19,638 bases of DNA, from positions 15,938 to 35,575 of the forward strand of contig DOIX01000429.1 of assembly GCA_003511885.1 (NCBI GenBank), in the 5' to 3' direction. A program made the translations under genes and the position numbers. Origin of the DNA: Cyanobacteria bacterium UBA11153 (GTDB lineage: Bacteria > Cyanobacteriota > Cyanobacteriia > Cyanobacteriales > Coleofasciculaceae). How positions within the stretch are numbered: the stretch's first letter is position 1; each line of letters opens with the position of its first letter. A model generated the notes under the pieces. It saw only the letters and a list, made by a program, of their open reading frames with translations, did not search any database and was not told the origin of the DNA. This document shows, in pieces, positions 7,203 through 18,265 of this stretch.

Positions 7203-7502
7203 TTAACTGTAGGGGCGGGTGCATTTGCGCCCGGATTTATTGGGAAAACCAGTATCTTTATCCGCAAATGCACCCGCCCTGCCCATCTGCTTAAGAAAGA
7301 GATTTATTGCTGCTCGCCACCCGCGAGACAGGGTGAAGGATATGGATATCAATATTCCGGTTTCTACCATCAATATAAATAACAGTCCCGCCACTAATCG
7401 CTCTCCCAGCCCAAACCTGTGTGTTTTCGGTAATCGACTGAGAATGGGTACATACCATTTGATTAAATCGTAGGTTCTTTGTATTACAGGGAGATTACCC
7501 AT
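7203..7502 (-). pseudogene. avd: Truncated Avd-like (DGR accessory, four-helix bundle) gene
   Basis: The first 40 residues from the ATG at 7502 (7383-7502; LPVIQRTYDLIKWYVPILSR, then LPKTHRFGLGERLVAGL) look like the N-terminus of the four-helix-bundle Avd proteins of cyanobacterial diversity-generating retroelements, which bind the reverse transcriptase and help mutagenic homing. Family members are usually about 110-130 residues and continue with three more helices. Here the similarity stops at residue 40, and the open frame then runs through unrelated hydrophobic sequence and into the GC-rich inverted repeat before its stop. I found no continuation in the other two frames. It lies 76 bases downstream of the SUMF1-fold gene on the same strand, the usual place for avd. 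No Shine-Dalgarno is visible. The family assignment rests on remembered consensus, so a different small helical protein remains possible. Confidence 0.55.
7213..7279. repeat. Inverted-repeat element with 17-bp perfect arms
   Basis: GGGCGGGTGCATTTGCG (7213-7229) and CGCAAATGCACCCGCCC (7263-7279) are perfect inverted copies around 33 bases. The GC-rich arms contrast with the AT-rich surroundings and match a family of dispersed cyanobacterial palindromes that begin with AGGGGCGGG. Transcribed, they would make a strong hairpin, which could end transcription from either side. The Avd-like frame runs into it, and its last 27 or so codons are simply the translation of this element. Confidence 0.8.
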
Positions 7503-7578
7503 TTTTGAAAAAAAATTTAAAGACAGGGCTGTTAAGAGCAAAGGGAAAGAGGGAAAAGAGCATAGAAGAATCCTCAGC

Positions 7579-7695
7579 CTAGGAAGTAACTAGACGAAAA
7601 CTGTTGTGGTGGTTCCAGTCATCCGTCTCAATCCAGTTGCGAAGCGCACTGCGACAGCTCCAAGCATTGTTGCTCCACGAACCGCCACGCAACAG
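7579..7695 (-). other. Candidate variable region (DGR-like) at the 3' end of the SUMF1-fold gene
   Basis: The last 38 codons begin LLRGGSW and end SFRLVTS, the position and frame of the variable repeat in C-type-lectin-fold DGR targets. Between those anchors, codons such as AGC AAC AAT, TGG AGC, ATT, GAT GAC, and AAC CAC CAC AAC AGT are what adenine mutagenesis of AAC/AAT-rich template codons would yield. No template repeat is found in the window, so the assignment is inferred from position and composition only. Confidence 0.4.
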
Positions 7696-8565
7696 ACGAT
7701 ATTGAGAATTATTCTTATTAGATCCACCATCATTCGGGACATCTCGGTAATCATTGTGGTAATAGTCTTGACACCATTCCCACACATTACCGTGCATATC
7801 GAATAATCCAAAATTGTTTGCTACTTGGAAACTGCCAACAGGGGTAGTTTTTTGTCTATATTCTCCTTTAGGTGCATTACCGTAAGGATAATTACCATCG
7901 TAGTTAACGCAATCGGTATTAATCGTCTCTCCAAAATGAAAGGGCGTATTAGTTCCAGCTCGACAAGCATACTCCCACTCCGCCTCAGTGGGTAAACGAT
8001 AGTTTTTTCCAGTATATTTAGATAGTCTGGCACAAAATTCTGTCGCGTCAAGCCAAGTTATCGTTTCTACAGGTAAATTTTCTCCTTTAAAGTAAGATGG
8101 GTTAGATTCTAAGTCGTGATTGACTTTGGGTAAACTAGCGACAATTTGCCACTGTGCTTGAGTTACGGTATATTTTCCCATGTAAAAGGGAGATAGAGTA
8201 ACTGAGTGTTGCGGACCTTCATTGCTATCTCTGTCTGCTTCACTAGTTGGGGAACCCATCATAAATGTACTACCGGGGATGGCTACCATTTCCAGAATTA
8301 CCCCGTTAGGCAAATTTTCGCTAAAGAATTTGGCACTACGGCGATTGCGACTATTTTTCCTGCCTTGAGAGTCAAGGGTAATGACATCAAAGGAAAAAGA
8401 CTCAAAAGATAAGTTCTTCAAGTTCGTAGTAGGCGATTCATCGCCATTATCATTTGTAATAGGGGCGATAAATCGCCTACTACGAGCGAATGCGATCGCG
8501 CCAATAACTCCCACACTACCCAAACCTGCTAGCTGAATAATTCTGCGCCTTCCTATATTAACCAT
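7579..8565 (-). CDS. SUMF1/formylglycine-generating-enzyme-fold protein, Tat-like signal
   Basis: This 328-residue protein opens with a Tat-like signal (GRRRIIQLAGLGSVGVIGAI, about residues 5-24), suggesting export or anchoring. A 50-residue spacer follows, then the SUMF1/C-type-lectin domain: MVAIPGSTFMMGSP, FYMGKYTVTQAQW, RLPTEAEWEYACRAG, DMHGNVWEWCQDY and finally LLRGGSW...FRLV. True formylglycine-generating enzymes use a Cys pair near the C-terminus; here only one Cys (WSCRSALRN) is at the equivalent place, so sulfatase activation is unlikely. In cyanobacteria this domain is often attached to Ser/Thr kinases and is a common DGR target. Here a kinase stub overlaps its start and an Avd-like remnant follows. 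ATG at 8565 is chosen because it leads straight into the twin arginine; a GTG at 8598 with a GGGAAGG upstream would add 11 residues. Confidence 0.85.
   Translation of the reverse strand: MVNIGRRRIIQLAGLGSVGVIGAIAFARSRRFIAPITNDNGDESPTTNLKNLSFESFSFDVITLDSQGRKNSRNRRSAKFFSENLPNGVILEMVAIPGSTFMMGSPTSEADRDSNEGPQHSVTLSPFYMGKYTVTQAQWQIVASLPKVNHDLESNPSYFKGENLPVETITWLDATEFCARLSKYTGKNYRLPTEAEWEYACRAGTNTPFHFGETINTDCVNYDGNYPYGNAPKGEYRQKTTPVGSFQVANNFGLFDMHGNVWEWCQDYYHNDYRDVPNDGGSNKNNSQYRLLRGGSWSNNAWSCRSALRNWIETDDWNHHNSFRLVTS
8424..8485. repeat. 22-bp inverted repeat inside the SUMF1-fold coding region
   Basis: The arms 8424-8445 and 8464-8485 are reverse complements with one mismatch (core GTAGTAGGCGATT against AATCGCCTACTAC) around an 18-base loop. 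This core is a frequent dispersed cyanobacterial palindrome. It is translated as residues 27-47, directly after the signal sequence, where it extends the spacer without breaking the frame. Confidence 0.75.
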
Positions 8566-8728
8566 AATAATTGACCAGATAAGTGCGACCAAAACCACCC
8601 TTCCCGCTAAGTAAGCGAATTATCCGATAGCGCCCCGCCAAAAGCAACTCCCAGCCACAAGCTTGGCAGAATATTTCGGTATCGGGATTTTGGGGTTTCG
8701 GGCAGTGGGGGTTAATGCAGAGACTCAT
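8558..8728 (-). pseudogene. N-terminal stub of a 4-Cys Ser/Thr protein kinase
   Basis: A 56-codon frame from the ATG at 8728 reads MSLCINPHCP and continues with FCQACGWELL, giving the Cys spacing C4-x4-C9 and C21-x2-C24 of the zinc-ribbon that opens many cyanobacterial Ser/Thr kinases. It then gives AGRYRIIRLLSGKGGFGRTY, which is kinase subdomain I with the glycine-rich loop G-x-G-G-F-G. The frame ends seven residues later, before the catalytic Lys, so it cannot be an active kinase. Its TAA (8558-8560) overlaps the ATG of the SUMF1-fold gene (8563-8565), which is in another frame. The likely origin is a kinase or kinase-SUMF1 fusion gene from which almost the whole kinase domain was deleted. 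It may still be translated and couple to the gene below. No Shine-Dalgarno is visible. Confidence 0.75.
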
Positions 8729-9165: not shown

Positions 9166-9422
9166 GAAATAACGTAAATTTAAGCCTTTAGCGGCAAAAT
9201 AGATGTTTTTGTCTTTTGTTCCTATTTATATAGATATAGAACACAAAATTATAAATTTAATCGGAAAAGAGACTTATAGACTCTGGTAAGCGATTAAGGA
9301 TAGTAAGCGAGATAATCCATCTAATGAAAGGGATTTAAACCCCAAACCAAGAAAAAGTGCCCTTTTATTTCCCGTGAACTTGGTTAATAATGCAAACAAC
9401 ACGAGAAAAGAAGCGATGCCCA

Positions 9423-9462
9423 AGGCAAGCTTCGCGATTGCCCAGGCAGGCTTCGCGATTGC
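9423..9462 (+). repeat. Two tandem 19-bp units in the chlL leader
   Basis: AGGCAAGCTTCGCGATTGC (9423-9441) and AGGCAGGCTTCGCGATTGC (9444-9462) differ at one base and have a 21-base period. They lie about 70 bases before the chlL start. They keep an upstream frame open in phase with chlL, which can mislead start calling. Confidence 0.7.
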
Positions 9463-9517
9463 AAACCCCTCCTGCAAAGCGCAAATAGAAGAAAAGTCCA
9501 GTTTTGATCCAAACGAT

Positions 9518-9522
9518 AGGAG
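9518..9522 (+). promoter_or_regulatory. Shine-Dalgarno AGGAG for chlL GTG start
   Basis: AGGAG lies ten bases before GTG at 9533. The position matches the universal ChlL start ([14 protein letters not shown]), so it settles the start against a longer in-frame reading that opens at 9374. Confidence 0.7.
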
Positions 9523-9532
9523 ACTACGAAAC

Positions 9533-10399
9533 GTGAAACTCTCAGTTTATGGAAAAGGCGGTATCGGCAAATCCACTACAAGCTGCAATATTTCAGTCGC
9601 CCTAGCCAGACGTGGTAAAAAAGTGCTACAAATAGGCTGCGATCCGAAACACGATAGCACCTTTACCCTAACTGGCTTTTTAATTCCCACCATTATCGAC
9701 ACCCTTCAGGAAAAGGATTATCACTACGAAGATGTATGGCCTGAAGATGTAATCTATAAAGGATATGGTGGCGTAGATTGCGTTGAAGCAGGTGGTCCCC
9801 CCGCAGGTGCAGGATGCGGCGGTTATGTAGTAGGCGAAACCGTAAAATTGCTCAAAGAATTAAACGCCTTTGACGAATACGATGTTATTCTCTTTGACGT
9901 ATTAGGCGACGTAGTTTGCGGCGGATTCGCAGCACCATTAAACTATTCCGACTATTGCATGATTGTCACCGATAACGGATTCGATGCCCTATTTGCTGCC
10001 AACCGAATTGCCGCATCAGTAAGAGAAAAAGCCCGCACCCATCCCCTCCGTTTAGCCGGATTAATTGGTAACCGCACCTCCAAACGCGACTTAATCAATA
10101 AATATGTCGATTCAGTACCCATGCCAGTACTAGAAATCCTCCCATTAATTGAAGACATTCGAGTTTCTCGCGTCAAAGGTAAAACCTTATTTGAAATGGC
10201 AGAAACAGATCCCTCATTAAACTACGTTTGCGATTACTACCTAAACATCGCCGACCAAATCTTAGCACAACCAGAAGGAGTAGTCCCCAACGACGCACCA
10301 GATCGAGAATTGTTCTCTTTGCTGTCTGATTTTTACCTCAATCCCCAACAACCCAAAGTAACCAAAGAAGAAGAAGAACTAGATCTAATGATGGTCTAA
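9533..10399 (+). CDS. chlL: Light-independent protochlorophyllide reductase, iron protein ChlL
   Basis: ChlL is the NifH-like dimeric ATPase that feeds electrons to ChlN-ChlB, reducing protochlorophyllide to chlorophyllide in the dark. The 288-residue product has the P-loop GKGGIGKST at residues 7-15, and the two Cys that ligate the bridging 4Fe-4S cluster are C95 (GAGCGGY) and C129 (VVCGGF). Switch motifs ([18 protein letters not shown]) are intact. Length and sequence match cyanobacterial and plastid ChlL throughout. The start is GTG. The enzyme is oxygen-sensitive, so expression in cyanobacteria is often tied to low oxygen or darkness, but I see no identifiable operator. chlN follows after 177 bases on the same strand, with a repeat between; chlB must be elsewhere. 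Confidence 0.97.
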
Positions 10400-13214: not shown

Positions 13215-14348
13215 GTGACAAAATTGACAACTCGAAGTACAGAATTAACTGACGAAGACATTTTAGCAGAAGAGGAAAATGAAGAGGAAGAATATGAAAA
13301 AGATCAAATTATCTACGATCCTGATAAAATTAACATTGTTACCAGAGAACCAACAATTGAGCAATTACTGAGAAGAATTAATGAAGAGGCTCTTGACTTA
13401 GCACCTGATTTTCAGCGTCATGCAAATATATGGAAACCTGATGCTCAAAGCAGACTGATTGAATCGATTATTATTCGGATTCCACTACCAGCATTCTACA
13501 TAGACGCAACTGATGAAGATAAATGGTTAGTGGTAGATGGCATCCAAAGACTATTTGCCCTGAAGCAGTTTGTTAATGATAAAAAACTTAAACTAATTGG
13601 ATTAGAATATCTGAAAAATCTTGAGGGGAAAACATTTGAAAAACTAGAGCGTAGATACCAGCGTCGTATCGAAGAAACTCAAGTTACAGTATATCTGATT
13701 GACAGAGGTACACCACCTGAAGTTAAATATAATATTTTTAAACGCATTAATACAGGAGGAGAACCTCTATCACCCCAAGAACTTCGCCATGCTCTCAATC
13801 CCGGTAAAGCCGCACGTTTTTTAGCCGATCTCGCTGCATCTCGAGAATTCCAACAGGTAGTTCCGTTAGGCAATACTAGAAAAATGCGTATGGACGATCG
13901 GGAATTTATACTTGGTTTCTTAGCGTTCTATTTGACTTCATATAAGGATTTCAAAGAAGACAAGAGAGATGCTTTTCTAACAAAAGCCTTAGCTAAAACT
14001 AATAAGCTTCCTGATGAAACATTGAAAAATATTGAAAGTAACTTCAAAAAGGCAATGATGGCTATTCATGAAATTTTTGGCAAAGATGCTTTTCGCAAAA
14101 TATCTCATAACCAGAAAAGAAAGTATCCCGTTAATAAAGCCTTGTTTGAAGCCTGGTCAGTAAATTTAAGCGATCTGACTGATGAAGAGATTAAAATATT
14201 AAAAATCAGAAGTACAGAATTAATTAATAGGTTTAGTAACTTGGTAGATAATGACAAAGATTTTTTGCTGTCCATCTCTCAAGCAGCGACTAAGGTCGAG
14301 TATCGATTTAGTACAATTGAAAAAATAATCCAAGAAATTCTGCAATGA
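13215..14348 (+). CDS. DUF262 (ParB-like/GmrSD N-terminal type) protein
   Basis: This 377-residue soluble protein belongs to the DUF262 superfamily, whose members include the nucleotide-hydrolysing part of type IV restriction enzyme GmrSD and other DNA-related proteins. The family motif is visible as VVDGIQRLFA (D108-R112; usually DGQQR) and FKRINTGGEPLSPQELR (about 175-191), with the first strands at WLVVDG. The N-terminal 35 residues are strongly acidic (EEENEEEEYEKD) and look disordered. No HNH or DUF1524 nuclease domain follows, unlike GmrSD; the C-terminal half is helical and basic. The stop codon overlaps the start of the next gene (ATGA), so the two are translationally coupled and probably act together. 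A defence role is inferred from the family and the partner, not proven. Confidence 0.8.
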   Translation: MTKLTTRSTELTDEDILAEEENEEEEYEKDQIIYDPDKINIVTREPTIEQLLRRINEEALDLAPDFQRHANIWKPDAQSRLIESIIIRIPLPAFYIDATDEDKWLVVDGIQRLFALKQFVNDKKLKLIGLEYLKNLEGKTFEKLERRYQRRIEETQVTVYLIDRGTPPEVKYNIFKRINTGGEPLSPQELRHALNPGKAARFLADLAASREFQQVVPLGNTRKMRMDDREFILGFLAFYLTSYKDFKEDKRDAFLTKALAKTNKLPDETLKNIESNFKKAMMAIHEIFGKDAFRKISHNQKRKYPVNKALFEAWSVNLSDLTDEEIKILKIRSTELINRFSNLVDNDKDFLLSISQAATKVEYRFSTIEKIIQEILQ

Positions 14349-15226
14349 TTACATCACTATCCTTAAAAAATTTCAAGCCTTTTAAAGAGCAGTCTCTTGC
14401 CTTTAGACCACTTACCCTACTATCTGGTCTCAATAGCAGCGGTAAATCTTCTGTGCTGCAAGCACTAATGTTACTACGCCAATCTTACCAACAAAAATTA
14501 TTGGAAAAGACAGGTTTGGCTTTAAATGGTGAGCTAGTTAATATTGGTACAGCTAAGGATGTCTTTTTTGACGGAGCAAGTAAAGCAGATCAACTCAGTT
14601 TTGAGATTGTTTTGGAAAATGAAACAAATGGAATATGGTCTTTCAACTACGATTCAGAGGTAGATGTATTGAATCGTACCTCACCAGCAGTTAATTCAGT
14701 CGTATATGAATCAAATCTTTTCGGCAATAACTTCCATTATCTTCAAGCGGAACGTATAGGTTCTCGTACATTTTTTCCCATGTCAGATTTCCAAGTACGC
14801 CAGCTTGGGAAACTTGGTATCAGTGGTGAGTATGCAGCACACTTTCTTTGGGTTAATCAGGAGAAACCGATTTTCAGTAATAGGTTGAGTCATCCCAAGG
14901 TAAAACTTTTGCAGAGGGGAATCGAAGATCCAAAAACTCCATCAAAGTTGTTAATAGATCAAGTAGAAGCATGGATGGGCGAAATCAGTCCAGGTACAAA
15001 AATCAGGCTTGAACCGAAACCTGATATTGATTTGATTAGTATCAAATACTTTTACGGAGATGGCAACCCCTACCGTGCCACCAATGTTGGCTTTGGCATT
15101 AGCTACACTCTACCAATTATTGTCGCCGTACTCGCATCAACTCCTGGTACACTAATCTTAATCGAAAATCCCGAAGCACATCTCCATCCTAAAGGGCAAT
15201 CCAAAATGGGTGAATTAATGGACTAA
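14345..15226 (+). CDS. AAA ATPase (DUF3696-like), apparently C-terminally truncated
   Basis: The 293-residue product starts like SMC/OLD-type ATPases: MITSLSLKNFKPF, then Walker A GLNSSGKSS at about residues 28-36 and ALMLLRQSY. A mid region resembling DUF3696 ATPases follows, and Walker B LILIENPEAHLHP lies at about 270-282, followed by GQSKMGEL. Related proteins run on for another 80-100 residues containing a Thr-His-Ser switch and the final strands; here a TAA comes four residues after GEL, and a two-hairpin repeat begins nearby (15239). Without those parts, ATP hydrolysis is doubtful. Reading past one extra A near 15222 would give MAKR, resembling the normal MAKAA continuation for a few codons, so a small indel at a repeat junction may be the cause. 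The ATG at 14345 overlaps the DUF262 stop. It could be a functional short form, but I consider it decayed. Confidence 0.7.
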   Translation: MITSLSLKNFKPFKEQSLAFRPLTLLSGLNSSGKSSVLQALMLLRQSYQQKLLEKTGLALNGELVNIGTAKDVFFDGASKADQLSFEIVLENETNGIWSFNYDSEVDVLNRTSPAVNSVVYESNLFGNNFHYLQAERIGSRTFFPMSDFQVRQLGKLGISGEYAAHFLWVNQEKPIFSNRLSHPKVKLLQRGIEDPKTPSKLLIDQVEAWMGEISPGTKIRLEPKPDIDLISIKYFYGDGNPYRATNVGFGISYTLPIIVAVLASTPGTLILIENPEAHLHPKGQSKMGELMD

Positions 15227-15424: not shown

Positions 15425-18265
15425 ATGTCCAATTTAGGAATTCTGTCAGACATCCAAAACCATTGGGCGAAAGACTCTATTCGCCAACTATTTAACCGTA
15501 AAATTGTCGGCGGCTATCCTGATAATACTTTTAAACCAAATAACCCCGTTACCCGCGCTGAATTTGCGGTTTTATTAAACAAAGCTTTTCCCAACGCCGC
15601 ACCCATTAAAAATTCAGTTACTTTTAAGGATGTACCCGCCAATCATTGGGCAAATTTAGCGATTCAATTTGTTACCCGTGCTGGTTTTTTCTCAGGATAT
15701 CCCGATGGTACTTTTAAACTAAATCAACCGATTCCCAAAGTCCAATCCTTAGTTGCCCTAGTCAGCGGCTTACAGTACGATATCAATACTACGCCAACTG
15801 AAATCCTCAATCAGTATTTTGATGATGTGGCTGCTATTCCCAAATATGCTGTCAAGGCAATCGCTACTGCTACCCAAAAATATCTAGTTATTAATTATCC
15901 CAATATCCGACGACTTAATCCCAATCAAAATGCTACTAGAGGAGAAATCGCTGCCTTACTTTGTCGCGCCTTAAATCTTCCTGGTGTTCCCTTAGATTAT
16001 ATTGTCGCCCTCAATTTACTGACAATTAAACCCCAATTCGATGAAGCAGATTCCTTTACTGAAGAAACAGCCAGGGTAAAAGTTGGGGAGAAATGGGGTT
16101 ATATTGACAAAACTGGCAAATTTATCCTGCCACCTCAACATGACGAAGCCAATACTTTTTCGGAAGGAATAGCCTTAGTCAGAAGCTATCAAAATAAAAT
16201 CGAAAAAAATACCATAGAATTAAACCAATCTCCTCCCAACATTTCAGAAATACGTGGTGTTTGGCTAACGACAACTAATAGCCAAGTCTTCAACTCAAAA
16301 CAAAAGATTGTTGAAGCAATGAACTTTCTCGCCCAAAGCGGATTCAATGTGGTTTTTCCTGTTGTTTGGAATAATGGTGCGACTTTCTATCCCAGTCGCA
16401 TTATGCGAGAAAACTTTGGATTGGAGATAGATGGGCGATTTGTAGGTAGAGATCCCTTGGGAGAAATAGTTACGGAAGCTAAACGGGTAGGATTAGCAGT
16501 AATTCCTTGGTTTGAGTACGGATTTTCTAGTTCTTTCAACCAAAATGGGGGACGTTTAATTACCAAAAAACCAGATTGGGCTGGACGAGATTTTAGTGGT
16601 AATTTACTGAAAAAAAATAACTTTGATTGGATGAATGCTTTCGATCCTGAAGTCCAAACATTTCTCCTCAGTTTAATGCTAGAAGTTATTCAAAATTACG
16701 ATATTGCTGGAATTCAGGGAGACGATAGATTCCCTGCCTTACCTTCAGAAGGAGGATACGATGCCAAAACTGTTGCCCGATATTTTCAACAATTTAATCA
16801 AAATCCACCCACTAACCCCAAAGACTCTCAATGGTTGCAATGGCGTGCCGATGTACTGACAGATTTTTTAACTAATCTATACCAGCAAATTATTAATATA
16901 AATCCAAATTTGATTATTTCTCTTGCACCTAGTCCTTATCCTTGGGGATTACAAGAATACCTTCAAGATAGTCAAAGTTGGATGGATAGAGGATTGGTTG
17001 ATATTATCCATCCTCAATTATATCGCCGAGATTTTGCTGGATATAAACAACTTGTAGATAGATTAGTTAACGAGCAATTTATACCTCAACAATTACCTGC
17101 TGTTATTCCTGGTATGTTGATTAAAGTTAGTGCTTATCGGAGCAATCCGGAACTATTATTGCAGTCAATTCAGTATAATCGCGATCGCGGAATTAATGGG
17201 GAAGTCTTATTCTTCTATGAGGGATTGCGGGAAGATAATGATGCTTTGGGCAAAGTTTTGCGAGCTAATGTCTACTCTAAATCCGTTCCTTTTAATCCAT
17301 CGGCGATTAAAGCTGGTGGCTTTACCCATCGCCGAGTTGGTGGCAAATATAACTATATTGACTTATCTGGAAAATCGGTAAATCAGCCTCAATTCGATTG
17401 GGCTGATTCTTTTCAAGAGGAAAGAGCGCGAGTGAAAATGGGTTATAAATGGGGCTATATCGATAAAAATGGGGGGCTGATTAGTAGGTTACAGTTTGAT
17501 GAGGCTGAGTTTTTTTCGGAAGGATTAGCTTTGGTAAAAATAGCTAATAAATATGGCTATCTCGACAAGACAGGGAAACTGGTAATTCCACCACAATTTG
17601 AAGCTGCTAATTCTTTTAGTGAAGGGTTGGCGGCAGTTAAGGTAGGGGGTAAGTGGGGATATATCGATCCGACGGGAATATTAGTAATTCCGGCGCAGTT
17701 TGATGAGGCAGATTCTTTTGCTCAAGGATTAGCTAGAGTGGCGATAATTTATCCAAGTAATCCAGAGCCTACCAACTCCCCTATTAGTCCTAATCCTACC
17801 AATTCCTCAACTAATCCCAATCCAACTAATTCTCCAACTAATCCCAATCCAACTAATTTTATAATTAATCTAGAGCCTACCAATTCTCCAACTAATCCCA
17901 ATCCAACTAATTCTTCTACGATCAAATCTGGATATATAGACAAAACAGGTAAACTAATTATTATACCAAATTTTGATACTGGCAGTTATTTTTCTGAAGA
18001 GCTAGCAGCAGTAAAAATTGCCAACAAATGGGGCTACATTAATATTACAGGACAACTTATAATTGAGCCAAAATTTGATAATTTTGCACCCTTTAAAGAA
18101 GGATTAGCAGCAGTCAAGATTGATGATAAGTGGGGATATATAGATAAAACAGGAACATCCATTATCCCTCCTGAATTTGAAGAAGTGAAATCATTTTATC
18201 AAAGATTAGCTCTTGTCAAAATTGATGGAAAGTGGGGTTATATTCGCAATATTTTATTGAGGTGA
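15425..18265 (+). CDS. SLH + WG-repeat protein with an embedded GHL10 glycosidase-like domain
   Basis: This 946-residue protein has three S-layer homology segments in its first 190 residues (ILSDIQNHWAKDSI..., TFKDVPANHWANL..., YFDDVAAIPKYAV...), with GGYPDNTFKPN and SGYPDGTFKLN signatures. From about residue 200 it has WG repeats (pattern PQFDEADSF.E..A.VK...KWGYIDKTGK), about ten in all. A GHL10-type glycoside hydrolase-like domain lies at about 272-620 (RGVWLTTTNSQVF, VVFPVVWNNGATFYPS, GIQGDDRFPALP, IISLAPSPYPWG, FFYEG). Asn/Pro/Thr-rich repeats occupy 781-832. The ATG at 15425 is the first possible start, since a stop lies 48 bases upstream in frame. There is no signal peptide, which is odd for an SLH protein expected at the cell envelope. 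It converges with the response regulator, overlapping it by 12 bases. A role in cell-wall or polysaccharide binding and remodelling is inferred. Confidence 0.88.
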   Translation: MSNLGILSDIQNHWAKDSIRQLFNRKIVGGYPDNTFKPNNPVTRAEFAVLLNKAFPNAAPIKNSVTFKDVPANHWANLAIQFVTRAGFFSGYPDGTFKLNQPIPKVQSLVALVSGLQYDINTTPTEILNQYFDDVAAIPKYAVKAIATATQKYLVINYPNIRRLNPNQNATRGEIAALLCRALNLPGVPLDYIVALNLLTIKPQFDEADSFTEETARVKVGEKWGYIDKTGKFILPPQHDEANTFSEGIALVRSYQNKIEKNTIELNQSPPNISEIRGVWLTTTNSQVFNSKQKIVEAMNFLAQSGFNVVFPVVWNNGATFYPSRIMRENFGLEIDGRFVGRDPLGEIVTEAKRVGLAVIPWFEYGFSSSFNQNGGRLITKKPDWAGRDFSGNLLKKNNFDWMNAFDPEVQTFLLSLMLEVIQNYDIAGIQGDDRFPALPSEGGYDAKTVARYFQQFNQNPPTNPKDSQWLQWRADVLTDFLTNLYQQIININPNLIISLAPSPYPWGLQEYLQDSQSWMDRGLVDIIHPQLYRRDFAGYKQLVDRLVNEQFIPQQLPAVIPGMLIKVSAYRSNPELLLQSIQYNRDRGINGEVLFFYEGLREDNDALGKVLRANVYSKSVPFNPSAIKAGGFTHRRVGGKYNYIDLSGKSVNQPQFDWADSFQEERARVKMGYKWGYIDKNGGLISRLQFDEAEFFSEGLALVKIANKYGYLDKTGKLVIPPQFEAANSFSEGLAAVKVGGKWGYIDPTGILVIPAQFDEADSFAQGLARVAIIYPSNPEPTNSPISPNPTNSSTNPNPTNSPTNPNPTNFIINLEPTNSPTNPNPTNSSTIKSGYIDKTGKLIIIPNFDTGSYFSEELAAVKIANKWGYINITGQLIIEPKFDNFAPFKEGLAAVKIDDKWGYIDKTGTSIIPPEFEEVKSFYQRLALVKIDGKWGYIRNILLR
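17765..17920 (+). repeat. Coding minisatellite: Asn-Pro-Thr repeats
   Basis: Residues 781-832 repeat the unit PTNSPTNPN with small changes (EPTNSPIS, PNPTNSSTN, PNPTNFIINLE). At DNA level a unit starting CCAACTAATCCCAATCC recurs about every 27-30 bases. The copies are nearly identical, indicating recent slippage or unequal exchange, and all lengths are multiples of three. It looks like a flexible linker. Confidence 0.8.

Follow-up and report, generated by a model that had tools for sequence, protein, structure and literature searches.

The window, a stretch of 19,638 nt from the draft genome of Cyanobacteria bacterium UBA11153, carries on its minus strand a gene for a protein of the FGE/SUMF1 (C-type-lectin-like) fold (7579-8598), followed by the 5' end of an avd gene. 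The FGE-sulfatase domain (PF03781, E 3.1e-54) covers residues 103-337 of 339, and a database copy of the protein (P0001, 328 amino acids, 100% identical) begins at an inner ATG. At the C-terminus (7579-7695), LLRGGSW is followed by 24 codons and then by SFRLVTS; the 24 codons between LLRGGSW and SFRLV (7603-7674, minus strand) are the variable core of the VR. An initial annotation made from the sequence alone had proposed a SUMF1-fold gene with a tip of this form, and the domain match bears it out: the gene has an FGE/C-type-lectin fold with a VR at its C-terminus, as an orphan target of a diversity-generating retroelement (DGR) would. By analogy with its family, the protein would bind a ligand with its lectin-like surface. 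Catalytic formylglycine-generating enzymes have paired active-site cysteines; the VR region of the target has, by eye, one Cys. The N-terminus (8500-8565, minus strand), GRRRIIQLAGLGSVGVIGAIAFA, resembles a twin-arginine signal. A palindromic repeat with 27-nt arms of the TAGTAGGCGAT type lies within the reading frame at 8424-8485, by eye in a linker after the N-terminal hydrophobic stretch, and part of it is found again on contig C160 of the same genome.

A 76-nt spacer (7503-7578, minus strand) separates the target's stop codon from the ATG of the avd stub (7371-7502, minus strand), which comprises about 44 of about 114 codons and then breaks off. On the target's strand the stub reads MGNLPVIQRTYDLIKWYVPILSRLPKTHRFGLGERLVAGL, and it aligns with the full Avds of complete cyanobacterial DGRs; when it is set beside five full Avds and a second stub, 18 columns are invariant across the seven rows. 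A profile built here from five full-length cyanobacterial DGR Avds (A3) matches the stub with its positions 1-44 of 114 (E 1.3e-15), and the PHROG family "Avd protein of DGR" (phrog_3206) matches at E 2.1e-4 over positions 13-53 of 154. Pfam bAvd (PF22296) matches weakly (model positions 3-34 of 107, E 0.0053, 17.7 bits with a cut-off of 40), the stub being a fragment that falls under the curated cut-off of that family, and in a whole-genome search with bAvd it scored E 0.0387 and ranked below a four-helix protein on C74. At 17.7 bits, the stub would be dismissed on the Pfam library alone. The likeness to Avd that had been suspected in a frame 76 nt behind the target, on the same strand and then broken, is real with a suitable profile. 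Beyond codon 44 nothing Avd-like was found, and codons 1-44 are all of avd that is present at the locus; the break is real. Two four-helix proteins (PF05635), on C43 and C74, were considered as the missing Avd and rejected, as the adjoining 1.9 kb, read on one side, contains neither an FGE gene nor an RT gene; both genes stand at contig starts, and the C74 protein, at 25.5 bits, is below the bAvd cut-off as well.

When the 1,500 nt behind the stub were compared as DNA with 17 intact cassettes, each with avd, RT, template and flank, nothing matched at E <= 1e-3, and homology of this stretch to an RT or template flank was rejected. Two dispersed repeats lie there, between the stub and an amylase gene. 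The nearer, a short repeat of about 28 bp (7329-7356), has at least five matches elsewhere in the genome among the candidates scored, three on C367 and others on C341 and C370. The second is a MITE-like palindromic repeat of 83 bp (about 7203-7285) with arms at 7213-7229 and 7263-7279 that are 100% complementary; it has at least 19 partial matches at other places in the genome, 40 out of 55 candidates having been scored, and it lies where the missing part of avd, the RT and the template would be expected. In the related genome G001, the amylase gene (85%) is adjoined by another gene, and the FGE gene is not at that spot.

Search for a reverse transcriptase and template

The working parts of the prototype DGR, that of Bordetella phage BPP-1, are the target, avd, template and RT; that element is complete and active, and the order of its parts differs from that of cyanobacterial cassettes. 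In complete cassettes from the same order of cyanobacteria as the window, the order is target, avd, RT, template. For example, locus L087 (G021:C411) holds a target, avd, an RT with GLPIGNLSSQ and YVDD, and a template within 3.5 kb. An FGE VR lies upstream of the intact avd in 16 of the 17 loci tried (at the other, L093, none was found within 2,500 nt of avd), and the spacer between target and avd measures 81-151 nt in 12 of the 16 and is longer in four. All 16 loci with a VR have a downstream near-copy of it, at E 2e-32 to 1e-48 when the VR is compared by blastn with its own locus and E is scaled to the size of the window genome. At least three quarters of the mismatches between VR and copy fall on A of the copy in 12 of the 16. 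The share is half or fewer at L089, L092, L204 and L210, where the top copy is probably a second VR and another copy lies at the usual template distance.

No DGR RT was found in the window genome, a draft that is 95.4% complete in 437 contigs: no match there to a profile built from five DGR RTs reaches E <= 1e-25. The three RVT_1 genes of the genome were all read as other types of RT: that on C192 exceeds the NCBIfam cut-off for group II introns; that on C79, cut by the contig end, matches a group II-type profile under the cut-off and by eye resembles the Cas1-linked RTs of relatives, with any neighbour gene hidden by the contig end; and that on C401 is retron-like, under the cut-offs. The types were assigned from the DGR profile and from motifs inspected by eye, because the NCBIfam hits include no DGR RT model; the true DGR RT of L087 itself scores best with a group II model, under its cut-off. 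Across 20 genomes of the family, four of which carry avd stubs, no DGR RT was found. Four weak profile matches, in four family genomes and all of the IPQGAVISP type, were rejected as divergent DGR RTs, the five DGR RTs having LPIGN and SQ, a difference that we presume to reflect the type of RT; Cas1 was the neighbour gene in both of the cases scanned. The five-RT profile matches 52 of 243 genomes of the order at E <= 1e-30, with at most 8 candidates per genome scored. Seven of the 52 have only matches weaker than 1e-36, and the two of these that were read are not DGR RTs; with the seven set aside, about 45 of the 243 genomes have a DGR RT.

A search of the draft genome for the template that would match the window VR (query 7440-7720, up to E 10) found none. 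The matches were the query itself, an FGE paralogue on C140 (68%, E 3.8e-5) and 28 short matches, none better than E 0.25; five of these short matches were read for FGE-tip motifs and had none. Thus neither the DGR RT nor the near-copy of the tip that the initial annotation had proposed to look for was found, the template control having succeeded at 16 of 16 loci. The absence of a template had been named beforehand as one of three results that together would speak against a DGR relic, the others being a lack of Avd similarity and a conserved C-terminus, but it also fits loss. RT, template and full avd, the parts of a complete DGR, are all absent from the locus as assembled. A small RT-template core could be missing from a draft at 95.4% in 437 contigs, and the main doubt about the locus lies in the draft genomes, in which an RT may have gone unassembled.

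Variation in the C-terminal tip

The target and its orthologue P0003 from the sister species Limnofasciculus baicalensis, encoded on a 1,628-bp contig, are identical at 8 of 24 positions in the core (33%) and at 233 of 298 outside it (78%). For P0006, the values are 7/24 (29%) and 202/245 (82%), and in all six proteins compared with the target, identity is lower inside the core than outside. The C-terminus is therefore not conserved but hypervariable between near relatives. That the VRs differ strongly and that neither congener has a detected RT is awkward for a reading in which the RT was lost. Mutagenesis that outlived the split of the two species, with two losses, would explain it, as would a polymorphic or unassembled RT, or P0003 being a paralogue. 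The target's own protein cluster has two member sequences over 15 contigs of unspecified origin, in line with little present variation.

Codon positions were compared between the FGE gene on C140 of the window genome and its two relatives in G001 (P0003 was compared as a protein). Differences in the VR at codon positions 1/2/3 number 10/7/1 and 11/10/0, compared to 24/18/59 and 22/15/27 upstream of the VR (Fisher 2.0e-5 and 9.5e-5), and the two G001 genes set against each other give 10/12/1 in the VR and 22/18/55 upstream. The pattern is what A-directed rewriting of first and second positions would be expected to leave. Protein P0106 carries the tip of the G001 target on C408, and G001 is by inference L. 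baicalensis.

The initial annotation had also argued for adenine mutagenesis from the codons of the tip. Consistent with this, third-position A occurs in 0 of 24 codons of the window core and in 56 of 200 upstream, and in pooled VRs the counts are 4/359 for intact loci and, with the window among them, 3/594 for those linked to a stub. The argument is weak for one gene, and 0/24 is unremarkable, because unselected FGE relatives are depleted too (134/2039, compared to 4522/17000 upstream), a control of 85 domains in 72 of 80 loci that is a mixture and will include DGR targets. We therefore do not take this depletion as proof for the window gene alone. Another FGE gene of the window genome, on C368 (L224), has a VR-like tip with no third-position A in 45 codons and has no avd match.

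Truncated avd genes in other cyanobacteria

We examined 35 truncated avd matches, 34 from a profile search of the order and one from the target's own family (G013:C249); those in G112 (12-112) and on G013:C274 (43-98) stand outside the 35. The 5' end is kept and the 3' end absent in 30 of the 35, and 27 of these 30 stubs are preceded by an FGE VR at a distance of 76-142 nt. The three exceptions are L165, at a contig edge; L168, about 1 kb behind the template of an intact cassette; and L170, where no VR was found. Two of the five truncated genes without a 5' end also adjoin a VR, and at the 29 loci with a VR just upstream the gaps are 76-142 nt, with one of -1. The 30 stubs are 21 to 86 codons long, and eight have a stop in the matched part. 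They occur in 28 genomes, of which 13 have a DGR RT or a piece of one and 15 have no detected DGR RT. The 15 consist of 14 from the order sample, a count that takes the genomes of the stub search to be the 243 of the RT search, and G013 from the family search. These 15 stub-bearing genomes, in which no DGR RT was detected, suggest that DGR losses may be common. Within each of two congener pairs, G028/G096 and G141/G166, the stub is identical, the flanks are near-identical and the VR is hypervariable; an RT is present in both members of the first pair and was detected only in G141 of the second. Genome G090 has three stub-linked FGE targets (C216, C222 and C121), with no DGR RT detected among the 8 of 10 RT candidates scored.

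Some of these loci suggest routes by which stubs arise. In G134, duplication may have formed the stub locus, which between -959 and +258, counted from the start of avd, is a copy of the intact cassette at 89%. Deletion in place may account for G127, where RT sequence lies directly behind the stub, and for G013:C249, in which the stub is followed by a piece of post-template spacer and then by a second FGE target. On the minus strand of the L. baicalensis locus C457 (G001:C457, L222), an FGE tip that resembles a VR passes, still in register, into the flank of a template, with 178/250 positions identical to L209 and five gap positions; recombination between VR and template that deleted avd and the RT would explain this junction. 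The same event is unsupported for the window, where it would leave no avd stub. We infer that deletion or partial duplication cut the window avd, with no cassette DNA beyond the stub by which to pick the route. Post-stub pieces in two other genomes were set aside as candidate cassette remnants and may be dispersed repeats: that in G125, between avd and RT, matches in part C368 of the window genome, on both strands, and that in G134 also matches a locus of another genome. An 82-bp piece on C140 of the window genome (16677-16758; L223:6178-6259), about 2 kb behind a kinase-FGE gene that itself has a VR-like tip, is 84% identical to the post-template spacer of L208. It may be a dispersed repeat too, since a Nodularia DGR is reported to have about 70 copies of a putative RNA element (PMC3610870).

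Origin of the locus and comparison with known systems

We consider it probable that the window locus is what remains of a cyanobacterial DGR, a target orphaned by loss of its RT and template. The orphan target proposed in the initial annotation is supported, in a draft genome, by the stub (E 1.3e-15), by the searches that found no RT or template, and by the variable tip. The complete cassettes in the same order of cyanobacteria, the 27 stubs placed behind a VR, the two congener pairs, the codon positions of the C140 gene and its relatives, and the relic-like sequences of G013:C249, C457 and C140 also speak for it. In the intact element, RT and Avd would have made cDNA from an adenine-rich template RNA, misreading it at adenines. 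Replacement of the 3' end (VR) of the FGE-fold target by this cDNA would have altered as many as 24 codons for a ligand-binding surface. Later, avd would have been truncated near codon 44 and the window VR would have lost its RT and template, with dispersed repeats coming to lie in the freed space. The protein would have been kept, its tip frozen if the RT is really gone. Adenine mutagenesis would then be the cause of the variability at the window locus, and the tip would now be frozen.

One alternative is that the target is still live, diversified in trans by an RT, Avd and template that are unassembled or on a plasmid, with the stub as a scar of duplication. Stub-linked targets are hypervariable in the RT-bearing congeners G028 and G096, the stub locus of G134 is such a copy of an intact cassette, VRs of the window's own genus are hypervariable with no RT found, and both trans diversification and structural variants with an intact RT within one population are reported by Dore et al. 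(2024, PMC10907252). We nevertheless regard a live target as unlikely, given 0 DGR RTs in the 20 family genomes compared to about 45 of 243 in the order with the same profile, the lack of a template for the window VR where the control recovered 16 of 16, and the little variety within the target's protein cluster (two sequences over 15 contigs of unspecified origin). It is very improbable that the 5' stub was kept for a function, as a cis retrohoming signal behind the VR or as a short peptide: the retention of the 5' end in 30 of 35 truncated genes and its position right behind a VR in 27 of 30 would suit such a role, but the same distribution would result if avd simply decayed from its 3' end or if copies stopped within avd, stub lengths vary from 21 to 86 codons with a stop in eight of 30, and the FGE genes on C140 and C368 have VR-like tips with no avd match. 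We give almost no credence to an ordinary FGE-fold gene with an Avd likeness and a variable tip arisen by chance or normal divergence, since, although FGE relatives are many, their tips vary and bAvd is below its cut-off, the Avd match (E 1.3e-15) is in the right place on the right strand, identity is 33% in the core compared to 78% outside, and the codon-position pattern is found in the genus.

Returning to the loss of RT and template, we offer a broader reading only tentatively, with rather less than even confidence in its two parts together: that cyanobacterial DGRs have been lost repeatedly and recognisably, with the 5' avd stub 76-142 nt behind the VR as the fossil, and that in this family diversification outlived, or runs without, a detected RT. 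For the family, the options include repeated recent loss, RT polymorphism within populations and recombination among frozen VRs. The end of DGRs has, to our knowledge, been little studied. Should avd stubs and VR-template junctions be marks of lost elements, genomes could be used to count the turnover of a targeted-mutation system, and it could be asked whether loss of the RT fixes a chosen variant.

Comparable systems have been described. In cyanobacteria, DGRs that act on FGE/CLec targets and have remote variable proteins share with the window the CLec fold, the C-terminal VR and remote copies; one such protein gene, all3226 of PCC 7120, has remnant TR-VR homology and neither RT genes nor pseudogenes in its vicinity (Vallota-Eastman et al. 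2020, PMC7517822). In contrast to those systems, the window genome has no detected RT or matching template and keeps a 5' avd stub, a gene name absent from that paper's main text. In Thiohalocapsa PB-PSB1, degenerate DGR loci likewise have key parts missing or broken and components degraded by MITE-like repeats, but one complete locus per class is kept, compared to none found in the window genome; a polymorphic RT is reported for the Thiohalocapsa loci (Dore et al. 2024, PMC10907252). Eight of the 17 Treponema denticola isolates in one paper's table have targets but no RT or TR; these too are FGE-sulfatase targets, some read as leftovers, but they belong to another phylum, and the portion of the paper considered mentions no accessory-gene stub (PMC4891356). 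Avd stubs go unmentioned in the portions considered of PMC7517822, PMC10907252, PMC4891356, PMC3610870 and PMC8867640, and a search of open-access literature by title and start of abstract, with subscription journals mostly outside it, gave no paper on avd stubs behind orphan targets. The window locus is an informative case of a known kind of system, and the recurrence of avd stubs is new here.

Other genes of the window also merit mention. At 13215-15226, a gene with a GmrSD_N domain overlaps an AAA_15/AAA_21 ATPase gene (293 amino acids) by 4 bases, possibly a defence pair. At 9374-9540, about 54 residues of the chlL reading frame, a repeat among them, precede the DPOR match, which begins at residue 55, and the true start of chlL is probably inside the frame. 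At 15425-18265, a protein with SLH, GHL10 and WG-repeat parts contains a low-complexity segment enriched in N, P, T and S.
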